Of a stretch of 64,000 nt of DNA, positions 8,561 to 51,709 are shown piece by piece. Made by a program: the position numbers and the translations under genes. The number at the start of each line of letters is the position of its first letter. Positions within the stretch are counted from its first letter, which is position 1. Source of the DNA: an uncultured Aquabacterium sp. GTDB lineage: Bacteria; Pseudomonadota; Gammaproteobacteria; Burkholderiales; Burkholderiaceae_C. The stretch covers positions 1-64,000 of the forward strand of contig NZ_CANBCC010000013.1 of assembly GCF_947366995.1 (NCBI RefSeq), given 5' to 3'. The notes under the pieces were generated by a model. It worked only from the letters and a program-made list of their open reading frames with translations, did not search any database and had not been told where the DNA came from.

Positions 8561-8587
8561 CGCGTCCGGTGCGCGGCCCGAACGCGC

Positions 8588-12848: not shown

Positions 12849-12856
12849 GGGGCGCG

Positions 12857-12885
12857 ATTGTCAAAAAATGACCTGTGGATGTCAA
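12857..12885 (-). promoter_or_regulatory. Promoter of the AraC regulator, overlapping TGTCAA direct repeats
   Basis: On the minus strand a perfect TTGACA (12880-12885) is followed after 17 bp by GACAAT (12857-12862), 8 nt before the regulator ATG. Read on the plus strand the same bases form two GA(n)TGTCAA copies exactly 21 bp apart, the period typical of tandem AraC/XylS half-sites. The site could thus serve both as the regulator's promoter and as its binding site. Confidence 0.55.
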
Positions 12886-12917
12886 TCCGCGCCCTGTGCA
12901 GCGAGGGCCTTGATTTC

Positions 12918-12923
12918 TACGAT
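12918..12923 (+). promoter_or_regulatory. Possible -10 box for the ferredoxin-reductase/AlkB operon
   Basis: TACGAT lies 32 bp before the ATG at 12955 and has no good -35 partner, as expected of an activator-dependent promoter. With a start near 12930, the two TGTCAA repeats would be centred near -47 and -68. Confidence 0.35.
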
Positions 12924-12954
12924 CCCGTCATCCTCACGCCCCTCCTGACATCCC

Positions 12955-13998: not shown

Positions 13999-14040
13999 GG
14001 CCGGGCCCGCCATCCCACACCAAGAACACGGAGACACACC

Positions 14041-15237: not shown

Positions 15238-15243
15238 GCCACA

Positions 15244-15270
15244 CGCCCCGCACCCAGGGGGGCGGGTTTT
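15244..15270 (+). terminator. Weak Rho-independent terminator after the hydroxylase gene
   Basis: A GC-only stem (CGCCCC paired with GGGGCG, or the shifted CCCGC/GCGGG) is followed by TTTT just after the hydroxylase stop codon. It would separate this operon from the following monooxygenase gene. Confidence 0.45.
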
Positions 15271-15275
15271 CATTC

Positions 15276-15305
15276 TGACAATGACCGTGGTCAATTGCGC
15301 ACAAT
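15276..15305 (+). promoter_or_regulatory. Promoter region with TGACC-GT-GGTCA operator-like palindrome
   Basis: CTGACA around 15276 resembles a -35 box, and CACAAT (15300-15305) ends 6 nt before the ATG of the monooxygenase gene. The perfect inverted repeat TGACC-GT-GGTCA (15282-15293) sits between them, where a repressor would block transcription. No Shine-Dalgarno is visible, so the message may be leaderless. Confidence 0.4.
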
Positions 15306-15311
15306 GCCGCG

Positions 15312-16769: not shown

Positions 16770-16840
16770 GCCGGCCCGGACCTGTACCATCGCGGTCCCG
16801 CGGCCCGTCGGCTGCGGTGCACCGGCCGATGGGGTCTCTC

Positions 16841-18286
16841 ATGAAAGCTTCACACCTGCGGGCCGATGTGCTCGCCGGCATCACCACGTCGTTCGCGCTC
16901 GTGCCCGAGTGCATTGCCTTCGCGCTGGTGGCCCACCTGCACCCGCTGATGGGGCTGTACGGGGCCTTCATCCTGTGCACGATCACGGCGCTGTTCGGTG
17001 GCCGGCCCGGCATGGTGTCGGGCGCGGCCGGGTCGATGGCCGTGGTCATCGTGGCCCTGGTGGTGCAGCACGGCGTGCAGCACCTGCTGGCCACCGTGCT
17101 GCTGTCCGGGCTCATCATGCTGGCGTTCGGCCTTCTGAAGCTGGGCAAGCTGGTGCGCATGGTGCCCCACCCGGTCATGCTCGGCTTCGTCAACGGGCTG
17201 GCCATCGTCATCGCCACGGCCCAGCTCGAACACTTCAAGCGCGATGGCGCCTGGCTGACCGGCACGCCGCTGGCGTTGATGGCCGGGCTGGTGGCCGCCA
17301 CCATGGCGGTGGTCTACCTTCTGCCCCGCCTGACCCGCGCGGTGCCACCCGCCCTGGTGGCCATCGTGGGCGTGGGGCTGGCCGTGGCCATGCTGGGTCT
17401 GCCCACGCGCACCCTGGGCGACATGGCGCACATTGCCGGCGGCCTGCCGGTGCTCGCCTGGCCCGACCTCGCCTGGAACCTCGACACGCTGAAGACGATT
17501 GCGCCTTACGCGATCGTGATGGCCATGGTCGGTCTGCTCGAGACCCTGCTGACGCTCAACCTCACCGACGAACTCACGGAAAGCCGGGGTGACCCCGACC
17601 GCGAGTGCGTCGCGCTCGGCAGCGCCAACATCGTGTCGGGCCTGTTCGGTGGCATGGGCGGCTGCGCCATGATCGGCCAGACCGTGATCAACCTGCGCTC
17701 CGGCGGGCGAGGGCGCCTCTCGGGTGTTGTGGCCGGCGTGATGGTGCTGCTGTTCGTGCTGTTCCTGTCGCCCCTGATCGAGCGCATTCCGCTGGCCGCA
17801 CTGGTCGGGGTGATGTTCGTGGTGGCGCAGCAGACCTTTGCGTGGGCCTCGCTGCGGGTGATCCGCAAGGTGCCGCTCAATGACGCGCTGATGATCGTCG
17901 CGGTCACCGTGATCACCGTGCTGACCGACCTGGCGGCGGCCGTGCTGTGCGGCATCGTGCTGGCGGCGTTGAACTTTGCCTGGCAGCACGCCCGCGCGCT
18001 CTACGCCGACAGCCACGTCGAGCCCGATGGCAGCAAACGCTACCGCGTGCACGGCACGCTCTTCTTCGCATCGGTCACGCCGTTCCTGCAGCAGTTCGAT
18101 CCGGCCGGCGACCCGCCCCTGGTCACGCTCGACTGCGCTCACCTGAGCTTCGTCGACTACTCGGCCGTGGAGGCCCTGCGCACCCTGCGTGAGCGCTACG
18201 AGCGCGCCGGCAAACACCTGCGTGTGGAGCATCTGTCCCCCCGCTCCCGGCAACTGCTCAAGCGGGCCGGTGTGGCGAGGGGGTAG
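16841..18286 (+). CDS. SulP (SLC26) family anion transporter with STAS domain
   Basis: A 481-residue permease beginning at residue 1 with the SulP entry signature (DVLAGITTSFALVPECIAFALVA) and about ten to twelve hydrophobic spans. It ends in a short cytoplasmic STAS domain (residues about 400-481) with CAHLSFVDYSAVEALRTL, including the conserved Ser of the STAS phospho-loop. Members carry sulfate, bicarbonate or dicarboxylates; the substrate cannot be read from sequence. The N-terminus is short compared with family averages of about 550. I prefer the ATG at 16841, with GGGG upstream, over one four codons earlier. No linked cysteine-biosynthesis or carbonic-anhydrase gene is present. Confidence 0.85.
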   Translation: MKASHLRADVLAGITTSFALVPECIAFALVAHLHPLMGLYGAFILCTITALFGGRPGMVSGAAGSMAVVIVALVVQHGVQHLLATVLLSGLIMLAFGLLKLGKLVRMVPHPVMLGFVNGLAIVIATAQLEHFKRDGAWLTGTPLALMAGLVAATMAVVYLLPRLTRAVPPALVAIVGVGLAVAMLGLPTRTLGDMAHIAGGLPVLAWPDLAWNLDTLKTIAPYAIVMAMVGLLETLLTLNLTDELTESRGDPDRECVALGSANIVSGLFGGMGGCAMIGQTVINLRSGGRGRLSGVVAGVMVLLFVLFLSPLIERIPLAALVGVMFVVAQQTFAWASLRVIRKVPLNDALMIVAVTVITVLTDLAAAVLCGIVLAALNFAWQHARALYADSHVEPDGSKRYRVHGTLFFASVTPFLQQFDPAGDPPLVTLDCAHLSFVDYSAVEALRTLRERYERAGKHLRVEHLSPRSRQLLKRAGVARG

Positions 18287-18297
18287 TCGAAGGCCCG

Positions 18298-18327
18298 AAA
18301 AAAAACCGACTCAGAAGAGCCGGTCTT
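18298..18327 (-). terminator. Rho-independent terminator of the RRM gene
   Basis: The stem ACCGACTC/GAGCCGGT has one mismatch and an AGAA loop. On the minus strand it is followed by eight to nine U residues, immediately downstream of the RRM gene. The opposite strand has only a short U-run, so it may weakly stop the SulP transcript too. Confidence 0.7.
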
Positions 18328-18346
18328 TCAAAGGGCGCGATGAGCC

Positions 18347-18685
18347 TCAGTAGCGACCGCCACCGTAGCCGCCCGTGCCATAACCCACGTCCGAACGTTT
18401 GGTGGCGGTGTAGCCGCCCGAGCCGCTGCCCTTGTCTTCGCGGGGACGCGCCAGGCTGACGACAATCGAACGTCCATCCACGGACATGCCATTCAACCCG
18501 GTGATGGCGGCCTGGGCGGCTGCGGCAGAAGCCATCTCCACGAAGCCGAAGCCCTTGGAGTTGCCGGTGTCACGGTCCGTCATGACCTTGGCAGACGACA
18601 CGCCGCCGAATTCGGCGAAGTTGCTTTTGAGGCTGGCGTCGGTCACGGAGTAGGGCAGGTTGCCCACGTAGATCTTGCTGCTCAT
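18347..18685 (-). CDS. Small glycine-rich RRM RNA-binding protein
   Basis: A 112-residue protein with a single RNA-recognition motif: RNP2 is IYVGNLPY at residues 4-11 and RNP1 is KGFGFVEM near residue 44. It ends in a Gly/Tyr-rich tail (GYGTGGYGGGRY). This is the architecture of the cold-inducible cyanobacterial and proteobacterial Rbp proteins. The open frame continues upstream to 18874, but the ATG at 18685 is exactly where the RRM begins. A long leader of about 220 nt and the strong terminator support a monocistronic, leader-regulated gene. Role in RNA chaperoning or cold adaptation is inferred from the family. Confidence 0.88.
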   Translation of the reverse strand: MSSKIYVGNLPYSVTDASLKSNFAEFGGVSSAKVMTDRDTGNSKGFGFVEMASAAAAQAAITGLNGMSVDGRSIVVSLARPREDKGSGSGGYTATKRSDVGYGTGGYGGGRY

Positions 18686-19003
18686 GGAAGAGCCTTTCTG
18701 GAGGAAGTGCACCGTCGCGATGCGGGTGAGCGAATCTGCGTCCGCAGCGACGGGATGTGTGAAGGGAGCTGCGGGGGGCAGCTCGCTCGGCACGGGGGAG
18801 GGCGGCCAGCGCGCGGGCTGCCTGCCATGAGTCGGGAAGGGGGCGCGGGCGCGCAGGAGGGCGCGGTCGGCCAAGAGGTGGCGCGGGCTCGGGCGGCCAG
18901 CGCAGGCGGTCTTTATATCACCGAATAATGTTTTGGGTGATGAATATCATCGCTGGTTTTAAAGGCGGTCAACGCATCCCGCGTGGAGCCGCCTCCGTTC
19001 CGG
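18686..19003. other. Intergenic region: long RRM leader and AT-rich promoter patch
   Basis: 318 bp without a gene. Bases 18686-18905 are GC-rich and would be the leader of the RRM transcript. An AT-rich patch at 18910-18960 contains TATAAA on the minus strand (18912-18917) and the inverted repeat ATCACC/GGTGAT (18917-18922, 18936-18941). No consensus -35 box is present. Confidence 0.4.
18958..18994 (-). terminator. Possible terminator of the exonuclease III gene
   Basis: On the minus strand AGGCGG and CCGCCT pair around an inner ACGC/GCGT stem. They are followed only by TT and AAAA, so termination would be weak. Confidence 0.35.
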
Positions 19004-19816
19004 TCACAGGCTGAAGTCGTAATCCACCGTCAGCGGCGCATGGTCGCTGAACCACGTGTCCTTGTAGATGCTGGCGGCGCGGGCGGTTTCGGCCAGGGCC
19101 GGCGTGGCCAGGTGGTAGTCGATCCGCCACCCCACGTTCTTCGCCCGGGCCTGGCCGCGGTTGCTCCACCACGTGTAGCAGGCGTCGGTCGTGTCGGGGT
19201 GCAGCCGGCGGTACACGTCGATCAGTCCCGCGCCGCCGGCCGGGTCGAGCAGCGCCGTCATCCAGGCGCGCTCTTCCGGCAGAAAGCCCGAGTTCTTCAG
19301 GTTGCCCTTCCAGTTCTTGAGGTCGGCTTCCTTGTGCGCGATGTTGACGTCGCCCACCAGGATGAACTCGCGCTCGGCGCGCAGCCGCGCCAGGTGCGGC
19401 GCGATCATGTCCAGAAAGCGGTACTTCGCCGCCTGGCGTTCGTCACCGCTCGAGCCGCTCGGAAAGTAGCAACTGATCAGCGAAAGCTTGCGCCCCGGCT
19501 TGTCGAAGCGCAGTTCCACCCAGCGCCCCTCGGCGTCGAACTGCGTGGTCACGTCGTGCGTGCCCAGGCCGATCAGCACGTCCGACGGCTCATGGCGCGT
19601 GTAGATGCCCACGCCCGAGTAGCCCTTCTTCTCGGCGTGGTGGAAGTGGCCCTGCATGCCCGCGATCGTGCGGAGTGCCGGCGGCATGTCGTCGGCGTGG
19701 ACCTTCAGTTCCTGCACGCCCATACAATCGGCCGACACCGATTCTGCCCAGGGCACCAGGCCCTTCGTGGCCGCAGAGCGGATGCCATTGACGTTCAGAG
19801 AGACCAGACGAAACAC
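19004..19816 (-). CDS. xth: Exodeoxyribonuclease III
   Basis: Exonuclease III is the main AP endonuclease and 3'-exonuclease of base-excision repair. The 270-residue protein has the family landmarks: SLNVNGIRSA at the start, the metal-binding Glu in GVQELKV, the catalytic Tyr in YTR, Asp and Asn in VGDVNIAHKEAD, and the terminal His pair region FSDHAPLTVDYDF. The start is a GTG at 19816; the longer open frame upstream overlaps pyrE and is a shadow. It is divergent from pyrE with only 15 bp between start codons, an arrangement widespread in related proteobacteria. Confidence 0.93.
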   Translation of the reverse strand: MFRLVSLNVNGIRSAATKGLVPWAESVSADCMGVQELKVHADDMPPALRTIAGMQGHFHHAEKKGYSGVGIYTRHEPSDVLIGLGTHDVTTQFDAEGRWVELRFDKPGRKLSLISCYFPSGSSGDERQAAKYRFLDMIAPHLARLRAEREFILVGDVNIAHKEADLKNWKGNLKNSGFLPEERAWMTALLDPAGGAGLIDVYRRLHPDTTDACYTWWSNRGQARAKNVGWRIDYHLATPALAETARAASIYKDTWFSDHAPLTVDYDFSL

Positions 19817-19831
19817 GAGACACCATCCATC

Positions 19832-20509
19832 ATGAGCACCACCCTTTCGAACGACTCTCTGGCCCAGGACTTCGTGGCCTTCGCGGTGCAATCGCAGGTG
19901 CTGCGGTTCGGGGAATTCAAGACCAAGGCAGGGCGCCTGTCGCCCTATTTCTTCAACGCCGGCCTGTTCGACGACGGCGCCAAGCTCGGCCGTCTGGCTG
20001 AATTCTATGCACGTCGGCTGATCGCGTCCGGCCTGCAGTTCGACATGCTGTTCGGCCCGGCCTACAAGGGCATCACGCTGGCGGCGGCCGTGTCGATCGA
20101 GCTGGCCCGCCTGGGCCACAACAAACCGTTCGCCTACAACCGCAAGGAAGCCAAGGACCACGGCGAGGGCGGCACCCTCGTGGGCGCGCCCGTGCAGGGC
20201 CGCGTGCTGATCATCGACGACGTGATCTCGGCCGGCACCTCGGTGCGCGAGTCCATCGAGATGATCAAGGCCGCCGGCGCCACCCCTTGTGGCGTGACCA
20301 TTGCCCTGGACCGCCAGGAAAAGGCCACGGCCAACGGCCAGGATGCCGCCGAGAGCGCCGTTCAGCAGGTCGAGCAGCACTACGGCCTTCCGGTCGTGGC
20401 CATTGCCACGCTGCGCGATCTGCTGCAGTACCTGTCAGCCCAGTCCGACCCGTCGCTGTCAGCGTTCCACCCTTCGGTGGAGGCCTATCGCCAGCGCTAC
20501 GGCGTCTGA
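19832..20509 (+). CDS. pyrE: Orotate phosphoribosyltransferase PyrE
   Basis: PyrE joins orotate and PRPP to make orotidine monophosphate in de novo pyrimidine synthesis. The 225-residue product shows the substrate loop YNRKEAKDHGEGG near residue 98 and the PRPP-binding motif RVLIIDDVISAGTS near residue 124. Length is slightly above the E. coli enzyme (213). It starts 15 bp from the divergent xth start, so the promoter must lie partly within the xth coding region or the two promoters overlap. Confidence 0.95.
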   Translation: MSTTLSNDSLAQDFVAFAVQSQVLRFGEFKTKAGRLSPYFFNAGLFDDGAKLGRLAEFYARRLIASGLQFDMLFGPAYKGITLAAAVSIELARLGHNKPFAYNRKEAKDHGEGGTLVGAPVQGRVLIIDDVISAGTSVRESIEMIKAAGATPCGVTIALDRQEKATANGQDAAESAVQQVEQHYGLPVVAIATLRDLLQYLSAQSDPSLSAFHPSVEAYRQRYGV

Positions 20510-20572
20510 GCCACCGATGATGGCAGACTGAGGTGGCCGCCACCGGCGGTCTGCGTCATGATGGAGTCCGTG

Positions 20573-21325
20573 ATGAGCCCGATTGCCTTTCGCCGTTCCG
20601 TGTCCCGCGTCCGCGCCCTGTGCAGCGGTGCCGGCGTGCGCGGGCGGCGGCGCGGCCCGGGCCTCGCGGCCCTGGGGCTGGCCCTGCTCGGAGGCGTCGA
20701 TCTGGCTGTTGCGGCGGCCTCCGGCTCTGGCATCTACTCCTGTGTCGACAGTGCCGGCCGCCGTTACACGTCCGACCGACCGATTCCCGAGTGCCTGGAT
20801 CGCGAGCAGCGTGTGCTTAACCGCGATGGCTCCCAGCGTCAGGTGCTGCCCCCGCGGATGAATGCCGAGGAGCGCGCGGCCGAGGAGGAGCGCCAGCGTC
20901 AGCGCGCGCACGCCGAGGCCGCCCGCAAGGACGCCATCCGGCGTGATCGCAACCTGGTGCTTCGGTACCCGAACGAGGCCGCCCACCAGCGCGCGCGCGA
21001 AGGGGCGCTCGACGACCTCCGCAAGGCCATTGCCTCGTCCGAGCGCCAGGTGGCGCAGCTGCAGGACGAGCGCAAAGGCCTGATGGCCGAGGCGGAGTTC
21101 TACAAGGGCAAGCGGCTGCCCGTCAAGCTGAAAGCCCAGCTCGATGCCAACGAGGCGCAGCAGCAGGCCCAGCGCGACATCATCCTCAACCAGCAGGCCG
21201 AGATGGGGCGCATCAACGCGTTCTACGACACCGAGCTGGCGCGCCTGCGCAAGCTGTGGGCGGGGGCCACCCCAGGGTCACTGGAGGCCGATCCGCCCAG
21301 CGCCGCCGCGTCGGCGGGGCGGTGA
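20573..21325 (+). CDS. DUF4124 domain envelope protein with coiled coil
   Basis: A 250-residue secreted or periplasmic protein. A basic, Arg-rich start leads into a hydrophobic signal peptide (LAALGLALLGGVDLAVAAA), then the DUF4124 motif IYSCVDSAGRRYTSDRPIPEC with its two cysteines, and then a long Glu/Arg/Gln-rich helix that is almost certainly coiled coil (residues about 95-235). The ATG at 20573 has GGAG 7 nt upstream and is preferred over the ATG at 20558. The function of DUF4124 proteins is unknown. It stands alone downstream of pyrE. Confidence 0.7.
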   Translation: MSPIAFRRSVSRVRALCSGAGVRGRRRGPGLAALGLALLGGVDLAVAAASGSGIYSCVDSAGRRYTSDRPIPECLDREQRVLNRDGSQRQVLPPRMNAEERAAEEERQRQRAHAEAARKDAIRRDRNLVLRYPNEAAHQRAREGALDDLRKAIASSERQVAQLQDERKGLMAEAEFYKGKRLPVKLKAQLDANEAQQQAQRDIILNQQAEMGRINAFYDTELARLRKLWAGATPGSLEADPPSAAASAGR

Positions 21326-21362
21326 ATCAGGGCCTGCAGGCTGCTTAGTGTTTTCTTAAGGT

Positions 21363-21374
21363 TCTGCTAGCAGA
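21363..21374. promoter_or_regulatory. Perfect 12-bp palindrome TCTGCTAGCAGA upstream of the hemerythrin gene
   Basis: The palindrome lies 64 bp before the hemerythrin-domain start, in an AT-richer stretch, and a second TTAGCAG half-site follows at once. It could be an operator; no matching regulator gene is adjacent. Confidence 0.3.
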
Positions 21375-21437
21375 GTCTTAGCAGCGGGCCGGCAGCAGCC
21401 TTTCTAAGCTGCGCTCTCCACAACACGGAGAGCAGAC

Positions 21438-22172
21438 ATGCCCGATCACCCCCACACCTCGAGCCAGGCGGCCCCGCGTCTGGATCTGTATGCCCCCATT
21501 CACAAGGCCTTGCGCGCCTGGATGTTCGACACGCTGCAAAGGGTGGGGCGCACGGATGGGCACGATGCACGCACCTTCGAGCAGACCTTGTCTTGCGTGG
21601 CGTCGCTGCTGGCCATCTGCGAGAGCCACATTCGCCATGAGCAAGCCTTTCTGCATCCGCTGCTGGAGCAGGCTCGCCACGATGCGGCCAAGGAGGCAGA
21701 CGGTGCGCATCTCGACCATGCGCGCGAGATCGCCCACCTGCGTCAGCGGGTCGACTCTCTGAAGCAGGCCGCCCCGGCTGTGCGTCACGCCGCCTTGACG
21801 CAGCTGTACCGCGAGCTGGCGCTGTTCGTGGCCGAGAACCTGACGCACATGCACTGGGAAGAGACCGTGCACAACGAGACGCTGTGGGCCTGCTACACCG
21901 ATGCCCAGCTCATGCAGACCCACGATGCGCTGGTGCAGAGCATCGCTCCACAGGAAATGGCCGAGACCTTGCGCCACATGCTGCCGGCCCTTGCGCCATG
22001 CGAGCGCCTCGGCATGCTGTCCGACATGCGCGCGAAGATGCCGGCCGGTGCATTCGAGGGCGTGCTGGCCCTGATTCACGAAGCGCTGAATGTGCACGAT
22101 GCGGCCGCCTTGCTGCAGGGCCTCGGGCTCCCGCCCGCCCTGCCCGCGGTTTGTTTGCCGGCGCAGGGCTGA
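21438..22172 (+). CDS. Hemerythrin-domain protein
   Basis: The 244-residue cytoplasmic protein has a hemerythrin-like four-helix core in residues about 15-160. Candidate iron ligands are His22, His64/His67-Glu68 (SHIRHEQAFLHPLLE), His91/His94 and the HMHWEETVHNE segment near residue 140. The remaining 80 residues form an extra helical domain (DALVQSIAPQEMAETLRHMLPAL) often seen behind hemerythrin domains in betaproteobacteria. A GGAGAG Shine-Dalgarno precedes the ATG. Roles known for such domains are O2/NO sensing or iron handling; which applies is not shown. It converges with the GAF-domain gene. Confidence 0.8.
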   Translation: MPDHPHTSSQAAPRLDLYAPIHKALRAWMFDTLQRVGRTDGHDARTFEQTLSCVASLLAICESHIRHEQAFLHPLLEQARHDAAKEADGAHLDHAREIAHLRQRVDSLKQAAPAVRHAALTQLYRELALFVAENLTHMHWEETVHNETLWACYTDAQLMQTHDALVQSIAPQEMAETLRHMLPALAPCERLGMLSDMRAKMPAGAFEGVLALIHEALNVHDAAALLQGLGLPPALPAVCLPAQG

Positions 22173-22188
22173 TCTGAGCGGCCGACCG

Positions 22189-23565
22189 TCAGAGGCGCTC
22201 GATGAGGTCCAGCGCAGCCTGAACATCCAGCCGGAAACGCCCCCTCCCGGTCTTCACGATCTGAATGGGGGCGGCACGCTCGGCCAGGCGACGTTGCAGC
22301 AGAATCAGCCGGGCTTCGAGGTTGTCTGCCACATCCGGCAGACCGAGGCTGGCATCCAGACGCAATTCGCGGTTGCTGAAGTCCTGTCGCCCATCGTGAT
22401 GCCAACTCCGCAGCAGGCGCCACAGGATGGCGCCGGCCACGCCCTTGATCAGGTACTCCTGACCCACGAACACGCTGTGCGTGTGCGGGTGGTGGTGAAC
22501 GGCCACCCTCTGGAGGTCGGCGTGCGCTGTCGGAGAGCGGGCCGCTGAGGGCGCGGAGTCCGCCGCGACATCGGGCGCGGGCGTCTCCATCGGCTGCAAC
22601 AGGGACAGGGCCAGGGCCAGCGGCGCGGCCACCGAGACCAGGGCATCCTCATCATCGTGGCTGAAGTGCTGGTCCTCAGTGCTCTCGACCATCAGCACGC
22701 CGACCACCCGCCCCATGAGCTTGAGCGGCACGGCCAGCTGGCTGCGTGGGGCCGCCAGGCCAGGCAGGGGGATTTCTTCGCGCAGGCCGCCGTCCAACCC
22801 CACGTCCTCGCTGCGTTGCCGGATGGCCCGGGCGTAGGTCTGGGACATCGCCATGTGGCCGATGCGGATGGGCACCCCTTCGCGTGCCGCAATGCCTGCC
22901 ACCCCCTGACCCAGAGGCACCTCCGCCCCCACGCCCGATGTCTCGTATCCCAGGCTCGCCACCGTGTACAGGCTGTGCTGCGGCGGGTCGATCAGCAGGA
23001 TCATGCTGTGCTCGATGCGCAGGTGGTCCCGCATGGCAGCGAGGGTTTCGTCGAGCAGCGTTGCCATGTCGTGACAGGCGCTCAGCCGGTCCATCACGGC
23101 GCGGGTGCCGGCCGCGATGTCGCAGCGGGGCGCCGGCGCCTGCAGCGTCCTGCGACCCGGAATCATCTCCACCGACTCGACCTCATAGAAGTCAGCGCCC
23201 TGCAGGTGATAGACCTTTTCCATGCCGCAGTGCGCGGCAATGCCGGCGAGCTTGGCCTTCATCCGCTCGAAGACGGGGCCGCCGTGCTCGGTGCGCAGGT
23301 AGCGCAGCTGCAGACGCACGCCGGCCGCGGTGTAGGGGTCGTCGACCGTGACCGCACAACGCCGCGTGGCGAGGATGTTCTCGCGGCTGCGGTTGAAGAA
23401 CTGGAAGGACAGGGCCACATGGGCCTCGTCCACGTACTCCACCTGCGACAGGTAGCACAGGTGCGGCACGCCCTCTGCCGAGACCGTGCACATGGTGGCG
23501 GGGATCACACCCTCGAACATCCGGCGCAGCCCGCCGAGCGTGATCGCCTGCGTGCCGGTGCTCAC
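22189..23565 (-). CDS. FMN-split-barrel/GAF/winged-helix-like fusion protein
   Basis: The 458-residue protein has three parts. Residues about 10-135 resemble a pyridoxamine-phosphate-oxidase-like split barrel (GVPHLCYLSQVEYVDEAHVALSFQFF). Residues 150-320 are a GAF domain (LLDETLAAMRDHLRIEHSMILLID, then VPLGQGVAGIAAREGVP). The C-terminal 90 residues (FSNRELRLDASLGLPDVADNLEARLILLQRRL, then IVKTGRGRFRL) look like a winged-helix-type DNA-binding fold. Together this suggests a one-component sensor-regulator binding a flavin or haem-like ligand. The start is GTG, overlapping the stop of the upstream split-barrel gene by 4 bp, so the pair is coupled. Target genes unknown. Confidence 0.65.
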   Translation of the reverse strand: MSTGTQAITLGGLRRMFEGVIPATMCTVSAEGVPHLCYLSQVEYVDEAHVALSFQFFNRSRENILATRRCAVTVDDPYTAAGVRLQLRYLRTEHGGPVFERMKAKLAGIAAHCGMEKVYHLQGADFYEVESVEMIPGRRTLQAPAPRCDIAAGTRAVMDRLSACHDMATLLDETLAAMRDHLRIEHSMILLIDPPQHSLYTVASLGYETSGVGAEVPLGQGVAGIAAREGVPIRIGHMAMSQTYARAIRQRSEDVGLDGGLREEIPLPGLAAPRSQLAVPLKLMGRVVGVLMVESTEDQHFSHDDEDALVSVAAPLALALSLLQPMETPAPDVAADSAPSAARSPTAHADLQRVAVHHHPHTHSVFVGQEYLIKGVAGAILWRLLRSWHHDGRQDFSNRELRLDASLGLPDVADNLEARLILLQRRLAERAAPIQIVKTGRGRFRLDVQAALDLIERL

Positions 23566-24047
23566 GCGTGCACCTCGATCGGGCGGCCCGCGCCGGGGCC
23601 GGGGCTCTGGTTCCAGGCCCCATAGGGCGTGAACGTCACGGCGTGCAGGCGGTCCGGGCTGTCGACATCGAGCCAGGCCGACGCGAACACCTCATCGAAT
23701 CCGAAGGGGCGGATCTCCGTCACGAAGCGCAGCTTGTGTTCGCTCCGGTGCAGCCAGTCTTCGGGCCGTGCCGGCGACACCACCGCGTCCCGCCCCTTGA
23801 TCTGCACGGTTCTGTGCGTGGTCGGCTGGCACAGCACCACGGCCACCTGGGGCACCTCGCGAATGGCGTCCAGCAGGGTGTCCGCCGCGGGCGAGGAGAG
23901 CAGCACCGACAGGCGGTGGTCGGACTCGACCCGGAGGGCCAGCGCCCGGTTCAGCAATGGCAGACCTTGCGCCGTGCGGCCGCCGAGGTGGATCGACAGG
24001 CCGATGCGCAGGTAGTCCAGCAGGTCGGGGTGAAGGGGGCGGCTCAC
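23562..24047 (-). CDS. Small pyridoxamine-phosphate-oxidase-like protein
   Basis: About 161 residues (GTG start at 24047; a GTG at 24101 is equally open). The sequence HRLSVLLSSPAADTLLDAIREVPQVAVVLCQPTTHRTVQIKGRDAVV is typical of split-barrel flavin-binding proteins. It is coupled to the downstream split-barrel/GAF gene, so the two probably act together. It lies 81 bp after gatB on the same strand and may be read from the gat transcript. Cofactor and substrate are unknown, and the start is uncertain. Confidence 0.55.
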   Translation of the reverse strand: MSRPLHPDLLDYLRIGLSIHLGGRTAQGLPLLNRALALRVESDHRLSVLLSSPAADTLLDAIREVPQVAVVLCQPTTHRTVQIKGRDAVVSPARPEDWLHRSEHKLRFVTEIRPFGFDEVFASAWLDVDSPDRLHAVTFTPYGAWNQSPGPGAGRPIEVHA

Positions 24048-24128
24048 GCGCAGGTCCGGTGAGGGGGATGGCCGATTCTGGAGGAAAGCCGGCCCCCTCA
24101 CAACGCGCGGCCACCCCGCATCGGGGGA

Positions 24129-44503: not shown

Positions 44504-45616
44504 TCAGCCGTGCAGCGCGCGGCTGTGGGCGTGCACCGTGTCCACCAGCACCGAGACGTTTTCCGGCGGAGTGAACTGGCTGATGCCGTGGCCCAGGTTG
44601 AACACGTGGCCCGATTGCGCCGTGTGCTTGCCGAAGGCGTCCAGCGTGCGCTTGACCTCGGCCTGCACCTGCTCGGGGTTGGCAAACAGCACGTTCGGAT
44701 CCAGGTTGCCTTGCAGGGCCACGCGGTCGCCGGTCAGGGCGCGGGCCTTGTCCAGCCCCATGGTCCAGTCGAGGCCCACCACGTCAGCGCCGCTGTCGGC
44801 GATCTCGTTCAACCAGATGCCGCCGCCCTTGGTGAACACGATGTGCGGGATGCGGAAGCCGTTGTGTTCCTTCTTCAGCTGGGCGAGCACGCGCTGCGTG
44901 TAGGCCAGGCTGAACTGCTGGAAGGCACCGTCGGCCAGCACGCCACCCCACGAGTCGAACACCATCACGGCCTGCGCGCCGGCTTCGATCTGCGTGTTCA
45001 GATACAGCGCCACGGCGTCGGCGTTGACGCTCAGGATGCGGTGCATCAGGTCCGGGCGCTGGTACATCAGCGTCTTGACGGCGCGGTAGTCGTCCGAGCC
45101 GCCGCCTTCGACCATGTAGCAGGCCAGCGTCCAGGGGCTGCCCGAGAAACCAATCAGCGGCACCTTGCCCACGCCGTTGGCGTCCGACAGCTCGCGGCGG
45201 ATGGTGCGCACGGCATCGAACACATAGCGCAGCTTGTCCATGTCCGGCACGGCCAGCGCGGCCACGGCGGCCTCGTCGCGCACCACCTTGGCGAACTTCG
45301 GGCCTTCTCCGACGGCAAAGCTCAGACCCAGGCCCATGGCGTCGGGCACGGTCAGGATGTCGCTGAACAGGATGGCCGCGTCGAGGTCATAGCGGCGCAG
45401 CGGCTGCATCGTCACCTCGCAGGCCAGCTCCGGGTTGGTGGCCAGGCCCATGAAGCTGCCAGCCTGGTCGCGCGTGGCGCGGTACTCCGGAAGGTAGCGG
45501 CCGGCCTGGCGCATCAGCCACACAGGCGTGCAGTCGGTGGGCAGGCGCAGGCAGGCGCGCAGAAAGCGGTCGTTGGCCAGAGGGGGCAGCGAGGGGGATG
45601 AGGTGGCGACGGTCAT
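44504..45616 (-). CDS. hemE: Uroporphyrinogen decarboxylase HemE
   Basis: HemE removes four carboxyl groups from uroporphyrinogen III to give coproporphyrinogen III. The 370-residue enzyme has the family signatures [15 protein letters not shown] near the start, [13 protein letters not shown] with the catalytic Asp, [13 protein letters not shown], and [15 protein letters not shown] near the end. TACAAT sits 6 nt before the ATG at 45616 with no Shine-Dalgarno, suggesting a near-leaderless message. Divergent from the acyltransferase gene. Confidence 0.95.
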
Positions 45617-45622
45617 CCGCGC

Positions 45623-45628
45623 ATTGTA
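45623..45628 (-). promoter_or_regulatory. hemE -10 box adjoining the start codon
   Basis: On the minus strand TACAAT, five of six to consensus, ends 6 nt before the hemE ATG. A start site 6-7 nt downstream would fall on the ATG itself. An inverted repeat CCCCCT/AGGGGG (45635-45640, 45651-45656) lies just upstream. Confidence 0.45.
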
Positions 45629-45710
45629 GGCAGTCCCCCTCAGCGCACTCAGGGGGGAGGGCGCGCAAGTCCTGAGCCAGATCACATCCGGCTCTGCCAG
45701 CATGCGTTGT

Positions 45711-47126
45711 ATGTCACACGTTTTGTCTGATGAGCCTCCTTCGACGGTGCCGATGAACCGCACCGAGCACGGCTATGCCGCCATCGAGGGCCTGGCGGGC
45801 ACGATGATCCAGCCCTATCTGGTGCGCCTGAGCGCCCCCGTCGACGAGGCTACGCTGCGCGGCGTGCTACGCGCGCTGATCACGGCCTACCCCAAGCTGA
45901 GGACGGTGGTCGAGCCGGGCCTGCATCGCTGCCAGTTCCGCGTGCTGCCCGAGGGGCGGCTGATCGACCAGCTGTTCGAGCGCGTGCTGCGTGTCCACCC
46001 CGGCCTTGAGCTCGATGACCCGGATGTCCTGCTGGCCTGGCACCGCGACGCCCTGCATGAGGTCGTGCCGCTCGAGCGCGGCCTGGGTGTGCGGGTTCAC
46101 TTCGCTCCCCATCCGGCGCGCCCCGCGCTGATCTTCGGCGTGCCCCACATCTTTGCCGATGGCATGACCATGGTGCACCTCGTGTCACAACTGCTGCGGG
46201 GCCTCGAGGGCGGCCCCATCGAGCCGATGCCGCTCGAGGCACCCTCGATGCTGGGCGCCATCGCGCCCACGCACTGGTGGCAGTGGCCGCGTCAACTCTG
46301 GCGGTCGCGCGCCCACCGCGTTGCCGAGCGACGGCAGTTGGCCGCGCTGCACGTGCAGCAACTGCCCACCCGCCTGCAGCCGCACTACACCACCACCGGC
46401 CTGTGCCACCACCAGGTGCCTGTCGGCACAGCGCGGCTGCGCGCTGCCGCCCGGGGGCGCGGTGTGTCGCTCAACACCCTGGTCGTGGCCGCGCTGGCCC
46501 AGGCCTTTCTCGAGCAGGCGCCCGATGACCCGCTGGCCGCGGCCGTCATCCGCATCTCCGTCAACCTGCGCCGGCATTACCCTGCATCGGCCGGCCACGG
46601 TCCGCTGTGGGGCAACCACGTCGGCGCCTTCCTCGTGATCGAAGCGGATCCCCGCAAGCCGCTGCTCGCCCGCGTGCGCTCGGTCGACGCCGCCATCCGC
46701 GAAGGCCAGGCCCGCTACGCCCGCCGCGAAATGGCCTGGACCTACCTGTGGGACGAGCTGACGCCCTGGCTGGGCCGCACGCTCATCGGCCACATCGCGG
46801 TGAAGATGATGCGCGCCGGTCGATTCCCGAAAATCAGCTGCCACGCGACCAGCCTGGGCGATGTCGCCGCGATCCAGCCGCCTGCCGGGCGCGTGCGTGT
46901 CGAGCAGATGGTCGGTGTGGTCAACAGCATCTCGCCGCTGCCAGTGCTCACCGAGCTCGATGGCCGCCTCGGCATCCCCATGACCTGGCAGCGCGCCGAA
47001 ACCGACGAGGCCGATGTGCGCGCCTTCCTGACCCGGGTGGACGCGGTGCTGGCCCGCATGGCGGACGAGGTCCTGTCCGCCACGGAGGGGCCACCCGAGT
47101 TGCCCGTCGCCCGCGCCGCCGCCTGA
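45711..47126 (+). CDS. HxxxD (condensation/WS-DGAT-like) acyltransferase
   Basis: The 471-residue protein has the fold and motif of the condensation/acyltransferase superfamily that includes wax-ester synthases and PapA-like enzymes: [11 protein letters not shown] carries His146 and Asp150 of the HxxxDG active site. Later conserved stretches are [29 protein letters not shown] and [10 protein letters not shown]. No adenylation or carrier domain is attached, so it is stand-alone rather than part of an NRPS. Start candidates are ATG 45702, 45711 and 45753. Its neighbours on the opposite strand are GNAT-like and GH3-family genes, which together suggest acyl transfer to an amine or alcohol. Donor and acceptor are unknown. 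Confidence 0.7.
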
Positions 47127-47152
47127 CGGCCGGGCTTCACGCCCGGGGTGGA

Positions 47153-48250
47153 TCAGAGCCGGCCCAGCTCCACATACAGCGGCCGTGCATCGATGCCGGG
47201 CCGCGGGTCGTCGCCATAGCTCAGCCAGAAGTTGCTCGAGATGAGCTTCTGCCGTTTGTAGCCGCGTGGCACCTCTGCCAGCGGGTCGCCGTGCGTGAAT
47301 GCCGTCGCGATCGCATCGTATTTCTGGCCCTGGTGCGCCATCAACCAGTCCAGCAGCGCGCGGTGCACGGCCGGGTCGTCCTCGCTCACCAGCGTGTTGT
47401 AGACCGTCAGGTAGTTCAGCACGCCGCCCACCGGCGGCAGCCGGAAGCCGCCCGCCAGCCCCACGTAGAGGTTGTAGAGCGGCCGCAGCACCTTCACCAC
47501 CGGCTTGAAGCCCACGATGCGCGTCTGCTTGTAGGCCTTCTGATCCCAACCCGCCAGCATCCCGACGATCTCGCCGTGCCGTTCGGCCAGCACATAGTCC
47601 TCAATGCGCAGCCCGGTGTAGTACGGGTCACCGGCCAGCAGCTTGCCGAAGTCGTATACCGGGTAGCCGTTGCGACGCGGTGCCTCGCGGTCGAAGTAGG
47701 CCTGCATGCGCGGCGCATCGGCGCGCGTGGCCTGCCGCAAGGTCACGCCCTTCGGGATGCGCGGGGCCTGCTTGCGGACATAGATGAAGCTCGTTTCGAT
47801 CGTGTGGCTCACCCAGAAGCGGAACAGCACGCCGTCGGCCACGTTGGCCGCAGCCTCCAGCGGGGCCGTGTTGTCCTTGAGCACGATGCCCTGCAGCAAC
47901 TCCTGGTCGGTGCGGTACTTCTTCTGCTCCATGAACAGCGACGAGGCAATGCCCCGCCGCCGGTAGAAGGGGTCGACCCGCGTGTCACCCGAGTAGTACA
48001 CACGGCGCTTCTGGCCGCTGATGTAGAGGTCGCGCCCCGAGATCACGGTGAGCCCCGCGAGCACCTCCGGGCGCTCGTCGTCCTCGGCCACGGCGAGGAT
48101 GAACTCGTCACCGATCACCCGCGCACCGGTGAAGAAGTCGGGCGTGCGCTGAAAGCACATCTGCGCCAGGCCCGGCATGGTGATCTTGGTGATCAGGTCC
48201 TGGATGCGGGGGTTGTCGGCGGGGGTGCCCAGACGGATGGTGATGGCCAT
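47153..48250 (-). CDS. GNAT-like acyltransferase (365 aa)
   Basis: The N-terminal half is a GNAT fold: IRLGTPADNPRIQDLI, then SGDTRVDPFYRRRGIASSLF with the R-R-x-G-I/A acyl-CoA loop. The C-terminal half is a second, degenerate GNAT-like module (VTLRQATRADAPRMQAYF, then VLAERHGEIVGMLAGWDQ). It shares the SGDTxVDPxY motif with the GNAT-like protein two genes upstream, so the two are probably paralogues. It is 50 bp downstream of the GH3 gene and co-directional with it. Substrate unknown; transfer of an acyl group made by the GH3 enzyme is a possibility. Confidence 0.68.
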   Translation of the reverse strand: MAITIRLGTPADNPRIQDLITKITMPGLAQMCFQRTPDFFTGARVIGDEFILAVAEDDERPEVLAGLTVISGRDLYISGQKRRVYYSGDTRVDPFYRRRGIASSLFMEQKKYRTDQELLQGIVLKDNTAPLEAAANVADGVLFRFWVSHTIETSFIYVRKQAPRIPKGVTLRQATRADAPRMQAYFDREAPRRNGYPVYDFGKLLAGDPYYTGLRIEDYVLAERHGEIVGMLAGWDQKAYKQTRIVGFKPVVKVLRPLYNLYVGLAGGFRLPPVGGVLNYLTVYNTLVSEDDPAVHRALLDWLMAHQGQKYDAIATAFTHGDPLAEVPRGYKRQKLISSNFWLSYGDDPRPGIDARPLYVELGRL

Positions 48251-48300
48251 GGCGAGACTGCTTGAAATGGGAGCGACAGAGGCGGTGGGGCGAAGGGGGT

Positions 48301-49944
48301 TCAGGCGGCCGACAGCACGCAGCCATCCAGTGCGTCGCGCAGCACGGCGGGTGCGGGGCCCGTCCAGTGGCGCAGCGGTTCGATCTTGATGTTGCCCTCG
48401 ATCATTCCGCGCTCGCGGCATTGCTCGAGGTAGATGGCCCGCATGTGGGGCAGTGCCACGCAGGCAGCCGGCTGCAGCTGACCCAGCTCGCGCGCGAGCT
48501 TGTAATGGAAGTTGGCCTGCAGGGCCTGCTCCACCTGTCTCGCCAGATCGTGCTCGAGTGCGGCCCGTGGCCGCGTGCCATCGCACTCCACCAGCAGCAC
48601 ATAGCCAGGCTGGCCGCGGCGCGCCTCATCAAGGGCCAGCAGCGTCACGGGCAGGGCGCCGTCCAGCGTCAGACTGTCCTGAACGGCCTGTGCCGTCTGG
48701 GCGCTCGTCTTCTCGCCCACCAGGTCGACCCCGTCGTTGCGGCCAAGAAAGGTGAAGCACGGCACCTGGCCCAGCGGCGCATCCACCCGCAACACGTCGC
48801 TCATGCGATAGCGCGCAAAGCCGCTGCCCGTGGTCAGCAGGGGAATCACCTCCTGACCCGTGCGCAGTTGCCACGGCGCCAGCACACGGCCATCGTGTGC
48901 ATCCTCGAACTCGTAGACATGGCTCAGGTAGGCCAGCGGATAGCGCCCCTCGAAGGGAAACGTCACCACCCCTTCGGTCGCCCACAGGCCCTTGCCCTGA
49001 AAGGCCGCATGCGGCAGCAGACCTTGCAGGCGCCGCGCCCACGGGGCCGCCGCGGCCGTGTCCCAGGCGCTCAGCACCGCAAGCTCCGGCCACAGCTGCT
49101 GAAAGAAGCCGCCGTCCGGCACCCCATTCCAGGCGGCCAGAAGCCGTGCTGCATGGGGCGCGCGCGGACAGGGCACGCCGGTCATGCGAGGGGCACGCGC
49201 CCCCCAGTCTCCCCGCTGCAGCACCTCGGCCAGTTCGGCACGCCAGGCCCCCATCTGCTCGAGCAGCCCGATGCCGAAGGTCGGGCTCCACACTGACATG
49301 AAGCCCAGCGAACGGTCGGCGGCCAGCCAGGCCGCCGTGGCGAACAGCGAATCCTCCGAGGTCTCGGCCAGCGCGATCTCCTGCGGCGCCGCCTGCGTCA
49401 GATAGGCCAGCAGGCGCTTGCCCCACGACAGCATCTTCATGTCATCGTTGATGTCGCCCGCGGTCTGGCCCCGCAACGCCGTCGGGATCCACGACAGCGA
49501 CCAGTAATGCGTCCCGTGGCCCTGGTTCGGGAACTGCCGGTACAGGTCACCCACCCACGCGGTGATGACCTGATCGAGCTCGTCGAGAAACAGCCGCGTG
49601 TACGGGATCCACTTCACCGCCGAGGTCGACCCGCTGGTGGGTTGGTAGCGCATCACCGGCGAATCGATCAGCAGCGCCTGCCGCTGCTGGCGCTGGGCGC
49701 TCAGTGCGGTCGCGTAGTCTGCATAGGTGGTCACCGGCTGCTGGCGGGCAAACTCTTCCCACGACCAGTCGGCCCGCACGCCACGCCGCTGTCCCTCGGG
49801 TGAGCGCGCCGCCGCCGACAGCCAGCGCGCCAGCCTGGCCCGCTGCACCGACTCCAGCTCGCTCACGTGCCGTGCAAACCGCCGCCGCCCTGGTTCAACC
49901 AGCGCCTTCAGCAGGTGGTGCCCCAACGTCGCGCCTGCTCCCAT
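48301..49944 (-). CDS. GH3-family acyl-adenylating amido synthetase
   Basis: The 547-residue protein belongs to the GH3 family, best known for plant enzymes that join jasmonate, auxin or benzoates to amino acids through an acyl-AMP. The ATP-binding TSGSTSAVKWIPYT lies near residues 103-116, and the C-terminal YRMSDVLRV...CFTFLGRNDGVDLVGEKTS matches the GH3 YR-GDV...F-R-...K pattern near residue 390. The DINDDMKML and TEGVVTFPFEG stretches also fit. Bacterial GH3 proteins are largely uncharacterised. The ATG at 49944 is preferred; a GTG at 49950 overlaps the upstream gene by 4 bp. It is flanked on both sides by GNAT-like genes on the same strand. Substrate unknown. Confidence 0.78.
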   Translation of the reverse strand: MGAGATLGHHLLKALVEPGRRRFARHVSELESVQRARLARWLSAAARSPEGQRRGVRADWSWEEFARQQPVTTYADYATALSAQRQQRQALLIDSPVMRYQPTSGSTSAVKWIPYTRLFLDELDQVITAWVGDLYRQFPNQGHGTHYWSLSWIPTALRGQTAGDINDDMKMLSWGKRLLAYLTQAAPQEIALAETSEDSLFATAAWLAADRSLGFMSVWSPTFGIGLLEQMGAWRAELAEVLQRGDWGARAPRMTGVPCPRAPHAARLLAAWNGVPDGGFFQQLWPELAVLSAWDTAAAAPWARRLQGLLPHAAFQGKGLWATEGVVTFPFEGRYPLAYLSHVYEFEDAHDGRVLAPWQLRTGQEVIPLLTTGSGFARYRMSDVLRVDAPLGQVPCFTFLGRNDGVDLVGEKTSAQTAQAVQDSLTLDGALPVTLLALDEARRGQPGYVLLVECDGTRPRAALEHDLARQVEQALQANFHYKLARELGQLQPAACVALPHMRAIYLEQCRERGMIEGNIKIEPLRHWTGPAPAVLRDALDGCVLSAA

Positions 49945-49946
49945 GC

Positions 49947-50801
49947 TCACAAGGTCCGGCCCTGCTCGATGCCTTCGGCGTCGGACTCACGCCACACCAC
50001 GCTGCGCGCCGGCTTGCGCTCGACGTCCAGCCCCGCCGGCCGGTGGGTGCCCAGCAGGTGCTTGCGCACCCACTTCACCGGCACGTCCACGATGGATCGG
50101 AACAGGCTCTCGTAGTCGCAGGCGCCGATGCATGGCACCTCCGTGCCGCGCCGCCATGTCGGGTTCACCTTCTCGAAGAACGCGATGTGCGGATTGGTCG
50201 CGCGCAGCTCCGGCGTGATGTCGGCGACGTCGCCCTTCAGGCGCACATAGTCGTCGCCGAAATCCAGCAGCATCTTCTCGCGGTCGAAGTACTGTGGGAA
50301 CAGCTGCTCGCAATACGCCTCGGTGATGCGGCGGTACTTCTCGTCCTGCCCGCGCACATTCGGGTAGTAGTTATAGAAGTTGTTGGTCAGCAGCAGGTAG
50401 GTCTTGTAGCCCTTCGAGATCAGGAACCAGTAGAAGGGCACGAACGGCTGCTTGATCCGCTCGATCACCAGCCGCCGGTAGAACGTGTTGGCCAGCGCGT
50501 TGTTGCCCCAGTAGGCGGGGTCGACGATCGTGTCGCCACTGAAGATGCCGCGCACACGCCTGCCGTCCACCTTCAGGTCGAAGAAGGTCTGCGTCGAGAA
50601 ACCCACCACCCGGTCGTCGGCCTTGCGCGTCACGAGGATCACGCCCGACTTCTTGCTCAGGTCATTGAGAAAGACATCCAGCGAGGTGTTCTCGTAGAAG
50701 CCGGCGTACAGGTCGTACATCTGCCGGATGTGGGTGACCGTGACGGCTGAGATCGGCCTGAAGAACGTGCTGACCTTGTCGCGAGAGGCTGAAGAAGACA
50801 T
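49947..50801 (-). CDS. GNAT-like protein (284 aa), first gene of the GH3 group
   Basis: The protein has a GNAT-like core: DRVVGFSTQTFFDLKVDGRRV, SGDTIVDPAYWGNNALANTFYRR, then a Tyr/Asn-rich segment (YKTYLLLTNNFYNYYPNV). The usual R/Q-x-x-G-x-G/A acyl-CoA loop is replaced by YWGNNALA, so it may not bind acetyl-CoA in the usual way. SGDTxVDPxY is shared with the other GNAT-like gene of the group. CGGAG stands about 8 nt before the ATG at 50801. Its stop overlaps or abuts the GH3 start, giving a coupled pair. Function not known; N-acyl transfer suspected. Confidence 0.62.
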   Translation of the reverse strand: MSSSASRDKVSTFFRPISAVTVTHIRQMYDLYAGFYENTSLDVFLNDLSKKSGVILVTRKADDRVVGFSTQTFFDLKVDGRRVRGIFSGDTIVDPAYWGNNALANTFYRRLVIERIKQPFVPFYWFLISKGYKTYLLLTNNFYNYYPNVRGQDEKYRRITEAYCEQLFPQYFDREKMLLDFGDDYVRLKGDVADITPELRATNPHIAFFEKVNPTWRRGTEVPCIGACDYESLFRSIVDVPVKWVRKHLLGTHRPAGLDVERKPARSVVWRESDAEGIEQGRTL

Positions 50802-51199
50802 CGCGGGCTCCGGGGAGGAACGCGGCCTGTGTGCGAGCACGGCCGTGTGGGTGACTGCATCTGCGACCCGTTGTTGGCCGCTTGTTAAACACAGGATGCC
50901 GGCCGACCGCGGGGGCAGGCACCGGGCTTGCCCTCAGTGCACCGCGACATGAGGGGGCGGGTGATCAAGTGCGTCGCCAGTGCGCCGCGACGCGGACGTC
51001 CGTGTAAGGGATGTGTCAACTCAGTACAGTGCCGGGGCTTGGTTCGGCTCCGGGTAACCGCGTATAATCTTTAGGTTTTGCCGACGCAGGTCGGTGTCTT
51101 GCTCCACTGTCGCCGCTGTTCACGCGTGCGCTGCGTCTTCTGTCAGATCCAGGAGGCCGGGCGCCCAGTCAGCGGGTTGAATGCGCCAAGCGAGTCGTC
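50802..51199. other. Intergenic region upstream of the ATP synthase operon
   Basis: 398 bp without a gene. It holds the promoters of the minus-strand GH3 group and of the plus-strand atp operon. A hairpin GGGCAGGC/GCTTGCCC (50913-50933) stands in the left part. Nothing protein-coding is convincing. Confidence 0.5.
51039..51068 (+). promoter_or_regulatory. Promoter of the atp operon
   Basis: A perfect TATAAT at 51063-51068 is preceded after 18 bp by TTGGTT (51039-51044). The start site would lie near 51075, giving a leader of about 125 nt before atpI. Confidence 0.65.
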
Positions 51200-51709
51200 A
51201 TGCAGCCACCTCAGAGTCACAAGCCGGGAGGTCAGCATGCAGCGCAACAGGCCTTCGACGATTCCGATTGGACCGAAGACATCGATCCCCCCGTCCGGCC
51301 GCTGACGCGACAGGAGGCGCAAGCCCTTGTTGCCAGGCACCCTTCCATGTCGGTCTGGCGAATTCTCGCCTGGCAGGCATCGGTGGCGGTGCTGGTCGCG
51401 CTGGTCTGGGGTGTCCTGTCGCAAAGCCCGGCTTCTGCTGTGTCTGCCCTGTATGGCGGTGCGGTGGTCGTGATACCCAATGCCCTGATGGCGCGCGGGA
51501 TCTTCGGGCGGGGCGCGGGACGCAGTGTGGGGGCGCTCCTCGTGTGGGAGTTGCTCAAGCTCGGGTTGAGCGGGGCCATGTTGGCGCTGTCGCCCGTGCT
51601 GCTCCGTCCGATCGACTGGGCGGCCATGCTGGTGACCCTGGTGTTGTGCCTGAAAGTGATTGGAGTGGTTCTGCTCTTGGGGCAGGGCCGCGCGAAGAAA
51701 TCTGTTTAA
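51200..51709 (+). CDS. atpI: ATP synthase assembly protein AtpI
   Basis: AtpI is a small membrane protein that helps assemble the c-ring. The 169-residue product has a charged cytoplasmic N-terminus of about 50 residues and then four hydrophobic spans (WRILAWQASVAVLVALVWGVL, GGAVVVIPNALMARG, VWELLKLGLSGAMLAL, AAMLVTLVLCLKVIGVVLLL). The sequence PNALMARG and the WELLK stretch match AtpI of betaproteobacteria. First gene of the atp operon, 12 bp before atpB. Confidence 0.88.
   Translation: MQPPQSHKPGGQHAAQQAFDDSDWTEDIDPPVRPLTRQEAQALVARHPSMSVWRILAWQASVAVLVALVWGVLSQSPASAVSALYGGAVVVIPNALMARGIFGRGAGRSVGALLVWELLKLGLSGAMLALSPVLLRPIDWAAMLVTLVLCLKVIGVVLLLGQGRAKKSV

Follow-up and report, generated by a model that had tools for sequence, protein, structure and literature searches.

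The genes considered here lie at positions 45,711 to 50,801 of a 64,000-nucleotide stretch of contig NZ_CANBCC010000013.1 (assembly GCF_947366995.1) from an uncultured Aquabacterium sp.; we refer to the whole stretch as the window. Three of the genes, for a bacterial GH3-family adenylating enzyme and two GNAT-like proteins (GNAT1 and GNAT2), run in series on one strand, and a fourth, for an HxxxD acyltransferase-like protein, lies on the other. The original prediction, made from the window sequence, was that these genes are a candidate undescribed acyl-conjugation system. Comparison of genomes strongly supports the view that GNAT2, GH3, and GNAT1 constitute a conserved acyl-conjugation unit. 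The best explanation, to which we assign a probability of about 0.55, is that these genes together direct the biosynthesis of a fatty-acyl amide lipid, either a lipoamino acid or an acylated amine, that would be secreted in many relatives.

We surveyed the neighborhoods of GNAT2 and GH3 in samples of genomes from the order, class, phylum, and family of the window genome, which is itself included in each count. In the order sample (300 genomes), GNAT2 was found in 9 genomes and GH3 in 16, and all 9 GNAT2 genomes had GH3. The two genes were side by side in five of these (the window genome, G154, G208, G415, and G422) and separated by 1.3 to 6.9 kb in the remaining four (G348, G334, G298, and G364). 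The class sample (369 genomes) contained 9 genomes with GNAT2 and 19 with GH3, and again GH3 was present in 9 of 9 GNAT2 genomes; it adjoined GNAT2 in seven, was on another contig in G779, and in G646 both genes were at contig ends. All six GNAT2 genomes of the phylum sample (388 genomes) had an adjacent GH3. Fisher's test, with the window genome excluded and no correction for kinship, gave P values of 4.5e-12 (order) and 5.7e-12 (class). We conclude from the co-occurrence in these three samples that GNAT2 and GH3 are grouped beyond chance, and we reject a chance neighborhood. A search of the family sample (150 genomes) with a single GNAT2 sequence gave five matches, four of them with GH3 beside GNAT2 (the window genome, G033, G015, and G121). 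G033, from the same genus, also has a second, stand-alone GNAT2 paralogue (L027:9221-9988; 41% identical) in a stretch without GH3 or GNAT1. In the genus sample, 38 of 41 genomes had a GH3 match; that in G462 was only 32% identical, and that in G443 was a 63-residue piece at a contig end.

A scan of 84,980 species genomes with a GH3 profile yielded at least 545 confirmed relatives, of which the best 80 were kept (25 Aquabacterium-like loci and 55 others). Since these loci were chosen by GH3 similarity, they give no estimate of frequency. GNAT2, GH3, and GNAT1 were all present in 78 of the best 80; contig ends truncate the other two loci, L048 and L067. The genera represented include Aquabacterium, Alcanivorax, Alloalcanivorax, Marinobacter, Moritella, Acinetobacter, Alkanindiges, and Pseudomonas (P. 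segetis). Pairwise distances of the three proteins were correlated across 85 loci (r = 0.93, 0.87, and 0.92; highest permuted value, 0.20), a correlation that was compared with no unlinked-gene control and part of which may reflect shared genome descent. The original prediction was to be abandoned if these families did not recur together in other genomes; the survey found that they do.

GH3 (positions 48301-49950, minus strand; 549 amino acids [aa]) resembles acyl-acid amido synthetases. It matches the N-terminal, middle, and C-terminal GH3 models of Pfam (PF03321, PF23571, and PF23572) with 96.8, 42.1, and 29.7 bits, against a cut-off of 23.6. Its nucleotide motifs are TSGSTSAVK (residues 105-113), ATE (324-326), and GFARYRMSD (377-385), and residues G107, K113, T325, E326, G377, R380, Y381, and D385 are identical in all 92 cluster-type GH3s. 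A dead enzyme is therefore unlikely, the ATP-site motifs being intact in the alignment, and the loss of catalytic residues that was named beforehand as a reason to doubt the system did not materialize. Compared with the plant and OlsH motifs as printed in PMC12493201, motif I lacks one residue, and in motif II a T takes the place of S. OlsH, a bacterial GH3 from the planctomycete Singulisphaera acidiphila, is described in the same source as making N-acyl ornithine from free fatty acid, ornithine, and ATP, and it is the experimental precedent for the fatty-acyl amide role proposed for the window enzyme. The nearest named loci are from Aquabacterium, with 88% and 87% GH3 identity. In a midpoint-rooted FastTree tree with many long branches, six GH3s without GNAT2 were separate from the other 94, and the Aquabacterium GH3s were nested with that of P. 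segetis among gammaproteobacterial sequences (support, 96). Four loci (L040 and L042 to L044) have another type of GH3, of 845 to 846 aa, followed by an enolase-superfamily gene of family F41 and without GNAT2; the MR_MLE profile was confirmed for F41 in L039.

GNAT2 (positions 49947-50801, minus strand; 284 aa), the product of the first gene in the series, has a predicted GNAT fold but lies outside all Pfam families; none of 56 family members had a Pfam match. The canonical acyl-CoA pyrophosphate loop of GNAT enzymes is Q/R-x-x-G-x-G/A. At this position, 55 of 56 aligned GNAT2 members have W98-G99, and position 101, that of the motif glycine, is mostly R, N, or Q. With the canonical loop replaced and its glycine mostly lost, use of acyl-CoA by GNAT2 is doubtful. 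Synthases of N-acyl amino acids or acyl-homoserine lactones were not seen among the 50 listed fold matches of each GNAT2 search, which does not show that such matches are absent. GNAT1 (positions 47153-48250, minus strand; 365 aa) has a GNAT domain at its N terminus that barely exceeds the cut-offs for Acetyltransf_9 (25.2 bits; cut-off, 25) and Acetyltransf_1 (24.6 bits; cut-off, 20.7). The two proteins had been described as twins that share an SGDTxVDPxY motif and sandwich GH3. The sandwich was confirmed, but "twin" is too strong: the proteins are alignable over only ~46 to 60 residues (BLASTP E value, 1e-4; hhalign probability, 83.7), and the SGDT residues are not conserved throughout the GNAT1 family. 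In the GNAT2 family, S, G, D, and T hardly vary (54 to 55 of 56 rows for each), whereas at the T90 position of the GNAT1 family 37 of 51 rows have L and 10 have T. Given this variation and the weak profile match, we reject the motif as proof of close kinship.

The HxxxD acyltransferase-like protein (positions 45711-47126, plus strand, with another possible start at 45753; 471 aa) resembles PapA and condensation-domain proteins and contains the motif HIFADG. It scored below the Pfam cut-offs for PapA_C (27.4 versus 30 bits) and Condensation (15.5 versus 30.6 bits), and its structure model had a pLDDT of 77.3. F7, a related family found within the operon elsewhere, reached 30.7 bits against a cut-off of 30. 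Three HxxxD families recur at GH3 loci, with hhalign probabilities of 96.3 for F16 and F7, 95.9 for F7 and F46, and a weak 57.5 for F16 and F46. An H-x-x-x-D-G/A match was present in 17 of 17 F16, 24 of 24 F7, and 7 of 7 F46 proteins. HxxxD proteins were found in 18 of the 25 Aquabacterium-like loci and 29 of the 55 others; the window-type family was in 18 of the 25, and a different HxxxD family lies inside the operon in Alcanivorax and others. In three Moritella loci (L092, L094, and L095; e.g., L095:12902-15307), a single open reading frame of 795 to 837 aa has F7 as its best match and HxxxDG at residue 45. The proteins of L092 and L095 also have an HlyD domain near residues 580 to 634, apparently as a fusion of acyltransferase and efflux adaptor.

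Genes for export recur beside the cluster. Of the 55 loci outside the Aquabacterium-like group, each searched over the whole retrieved stretch, 44 had an HlyD-type adaptor, 37 had an RND permease, and 9 had an MFS protein. Within 6 kb of GH3 in all 80 loci, the counts were 53 for the adaptor, 37 for RND, 9 for MFS, and 7 for ABC-2 permeases. Some Aquabacterium-like loci instead have an adaptor (9/25) and an ABC-2 exporter (permease F32, 7/25). A profile check of representatives identified HlyD, ACR_tran, MFS_1, ABC-2, and outer-membrane efflux protein domains. Because exporters recur, we favor a secreted lipid or surfactant over a signal. Distant clusters contain fatty-acid desaturases, a Rieske oxygenase, and an Asp/Asn hydroxylase-family protein, and others contain several radical SAM proteins, with a B12-binding domain in both of the two checked.

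L023, on a Citrobacter portucalensis plasmid typed as mobilizable and IncFIB/IncFII, carries GNAT2, GH3, GNAT1, five radical SAM proteins, a PAP2 phosphatase, and a fatty acid desaturase (positions 11986-24081) and is an unusual lipid-type cluster. L036 to L038, from one Burkholderiales family, each have GH3, GNAT2, and, by clustering, two Rieske-family genes. L036 also encodes a weakly AurF-like protein (8222-9100; below cut-off) and an Fer2 ferredoxin (14883-15176).

These findings suggest the following scheme. GH3, to judge from its family and intact motifs, would activate a free fatty acid with ATP and couple it to the amino group of an amino acid or another amine. GNAT2 and GNAT1, given their fold, may add or exchange acyl groups on nitrogen, and the HxxxD acyltransferase may attach one more acyl group, probably through an ester bond. 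In relatives, the membrane-fusion protein and the RND, MFS, or ABC pump, which are linked to the cluster, would export the product, probably a surfactant or envelope lipid.

The family that includes G846 (the genome of L080, Alloalcanivorax xenomutans) was represented by 46 genomes, of which 34 had this GH3 at an E value of 1e-30; among 30 loci examined, all had GNAT2 and GNAT1 and 28 had the F7 HxxxD gene. One genome, with a contig of 4,928,223 bp, has the order GNAT2-GH3-GNAT1-F7 with HlyD-RND genes convergent beside it; by its size, we take this genome to be that of A. dieselolei B5. No GH3 match was found in a genome with a contig of 3,120,143 bp, the size given for A. borkumensis SK2 in PMC5174103 (Table 1), and we take this genome to be that of SK2. 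The products reported for these species are a proline lipid with C14 to C18 acids in A. dieselolei, a glucose lipid in A. borkumensis, and a lipopeptide of undefined structure in A. hongdengensis (PMC6669457 and PMC5174103); A. hongdengensis A-11-3 carries the cluster (L071). The putative B5 and SK2 genomes are a single presence-absence pair and not a test: GH3 is lacking in 12 of the 46 genomes of the G846 family, and product data exist for few species. We consider the cluster a good candidate for the genes behind the fatty-acid/amino-acid surfactants of oil-degrading bacteria, and its product in A. dieselolei may be the known proline lipid itself, a hypothesis to which we give a low probability.

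A number of observations weigh against a secreted fatty-acyl amide lipid. GNAT2 was missing from 7 of 16 GH3 genomes in the order sample and 10 of 19 in the class sample, and G116, of the same family, has a GNAT2 relative (25% identical) with no GH3 seen within 20 kb. HxxxD proteins were not found in 7 of 25 Aquabacterium-like and 26 of 55 other loci, so this enzyme is optional or replaced. No exporter was found at 16 of the 25 Aquabacterium-like loci or at 8 of the 55 others, some of these loci being cut by contig ends. The window cluster is among those without a linked exporter, and the ABC-2 permease matches in its genome are only 25 to 30% identical. Because the desaturase, Rieske, and B12-radical SAM sets vary, products probably differ among clusters. 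Surface tension is reported to fall further with SK2 than with A. dieselolei KS 293, and the same source describes proline metabolism as equally regulated in one passage but as upregulated elsewhere (PMC5174103). Moreover, one enzyme would suffice for a plain acyl-proline, yet two GNATs and an HxxxD protein are present, which suggests a more complex product.

The lack of a linked exporter in the window would also suit a pathway for a membrane aminolipid akin to ornithine lipids, in which GH3 and another acyltransferase take the roles of OlsH and OlsI, the product remains in the envelope, and the pumps shuttle it between membranes. OlsH itself is the precedent for such a pathway (PMC12493201). 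Three more distant loci (L028, L032, and L034) add fatty-acid desaturases and an Asp/Asn beta-hydroxylase-family gene, assigned with PF05118 in L034 and by clustering in the others. This is the family of OlsC and LpxO. However, no OlsI-like alpha/beta-hydrolase or OlsG occurs in the GH3 operon or among its neighbors (GNAT2, GNAT1, HxxxD, hemE, and atpI), in a search confined to this neighborhood, and an outer-membrane efflux protein with an MFS pump in the Acinetobacter clusters points outside the cell. We regard this pathway as unlikely, although it is the most probable of the alternatives.

Less probable still is detoxification by conjugation and efflux, with GH3 and the GNATs tagging toxic fatty, aromatic, or xenobiotic acids or amines for expulsion by the pumps. 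Plant GH3 enzymes do conjugate hormones and aromatic acids (in part, PMC12493201), and the pumps are similar to drug-efflux families, but the synteny of three enzymes and the presence of HxxxD proteins, desaturases, and radical SAM proteins in relatives suit biosynthesis better. The product class put forward in the original prediction was an acyl-amino-acid or acyl-amine signal or lipid. Co-occurrence bears out a conserved conjugation unit, whereas a signal specifically is the least probable of these explanations, and the exporters favor a surfactant or other secreted lipid. In favor of a signal, acyl-homoserine lactones and N-acyl amino acids are known products of GNAT-related enzymes, and an AraC-type regulator gene (F6) lies <1 kb from GNAT2 in 24 of 80 loci; a search confined to this regulator family did not find it beside the cluster in the other 56, including those of Aquabacterium and Acinetobacter. 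Our preferred reading can be extended, tentatively, to a widespread and undescribed class of acyl-amide clusters with GNAT2-GH3-GNAT1 as the core and interchangeable tailoring sets and exporters. The tailoring would fall to an HxxxD acyltransferase in some clusters, to a desaturase with Rieske and Asp-hydroxylase enzymes in others, and to B12-radical SAM enzymes in still others. The acyl donor of GNAT2 would be a carrier other than acyl-CoA, perhaps the GH3 acyl adenylate or amide, and the Alcanivorax cluster would make lipoamino acid surfactants.

The arrangement of the four window genes, checked by open reading frames and Pfam, is as originally predicted. The minus-strand series runs GNAT2, GH3, GNAT1; GH3 shares 4 bp with the end of GNAT2, and a gap of 50 bp follows between GH3 and GNAT1. 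Convergent with GNAT1, tail to tail across a 26-bp gap, the HxxxD gene is therefore on a separate transcript. A scan of positions 45500-51250 detected neither promoter- nor terminator-like sites, and the sole repeat found was a 33-bp pair (79%) across the GNAT1 and GNAT2 genes. Pfam profiles confirmed hemE and atpI as the flanking genes. The suggestion that the cluster is an accessory insertion between them fared less well: the position of hemE varies in Aquabacterium (on another contig in G453 and beyond the atp genes in G451), and in the two outgroup stretches examined hemE and atpI were not neighbors. HxxxD is unlikely to be a mere hemE neighbor, as in G453 and G451, which have hemE elsewhere, it still lies 3.5 to 4.8 kb from GNAT1. 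We also rejected a phage origin of the cluster, GH3 relatives being unconfirmed in viral contigs by a search that reached close relatives only, and a plasmid origin, for which plasmid collections gave few matches (12 records for GNAT2 and 4 for GH3, two being ~4-Mb Acinetobacter records).

Among the matches listed in a search of the open-licence literature on bacterial GH3, no paper on the GNAT2-GH3-GNAT1 gene set was recognized by title or opening of the abstract, which is compatible with an undescribed system. PapA5 and condensation-domain acyltransferases share with the window HxxxD protein the HxxxDG motif and weak profile similarity; the window protein differs in falling below the Pfam cut-offs, and there is no PKS or NRPS among the four genes. 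FeeM-type N-acyl amino acid synthases are single enzymes that use acyl-ACP. They are named in PMC6669457 and possibly yield the same product class. Pfam and a PDB sequence search place the window GH3 in the family of plant acyl-acid amido synthetases (GH3.6, GH3.15, and others), which act on hormones. The plant enzymes, its relatives in the PDB search, are very distant (best E value, 3e-5) and do not form an operon. The closest parallel in kind is OlsH-OlsI, a lipid pathway whose first step falls to a bacterial GH3-like enzyme with nucleotide motifs that correspond to those of the window GH3; the partners of that enzyme are an alpha/beta-hydrolase O-acyltransferase and an N-methyltransferase (PMC12493201). 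GH3-dependent aminolipid synthesis is thus already known, and the OlsH paper, whose main text does not contain the word GNAT, covers a different gene set. In the window cluster, GH3 is instead accompanied by two GNAT-fold proteins and an HxxxD protein, and export pumps join these in relatives. The cluster would widen bacterial GH3 chemistry beyond ornithine lipids, add a GNAT-fold family with no Pfam model and without the usual acyl-CoA loop, and provide candidate genes for the surfactant of a cultured producer (putative B5), as opposed to an apparent nonproducer without GH3 (putative SK2).

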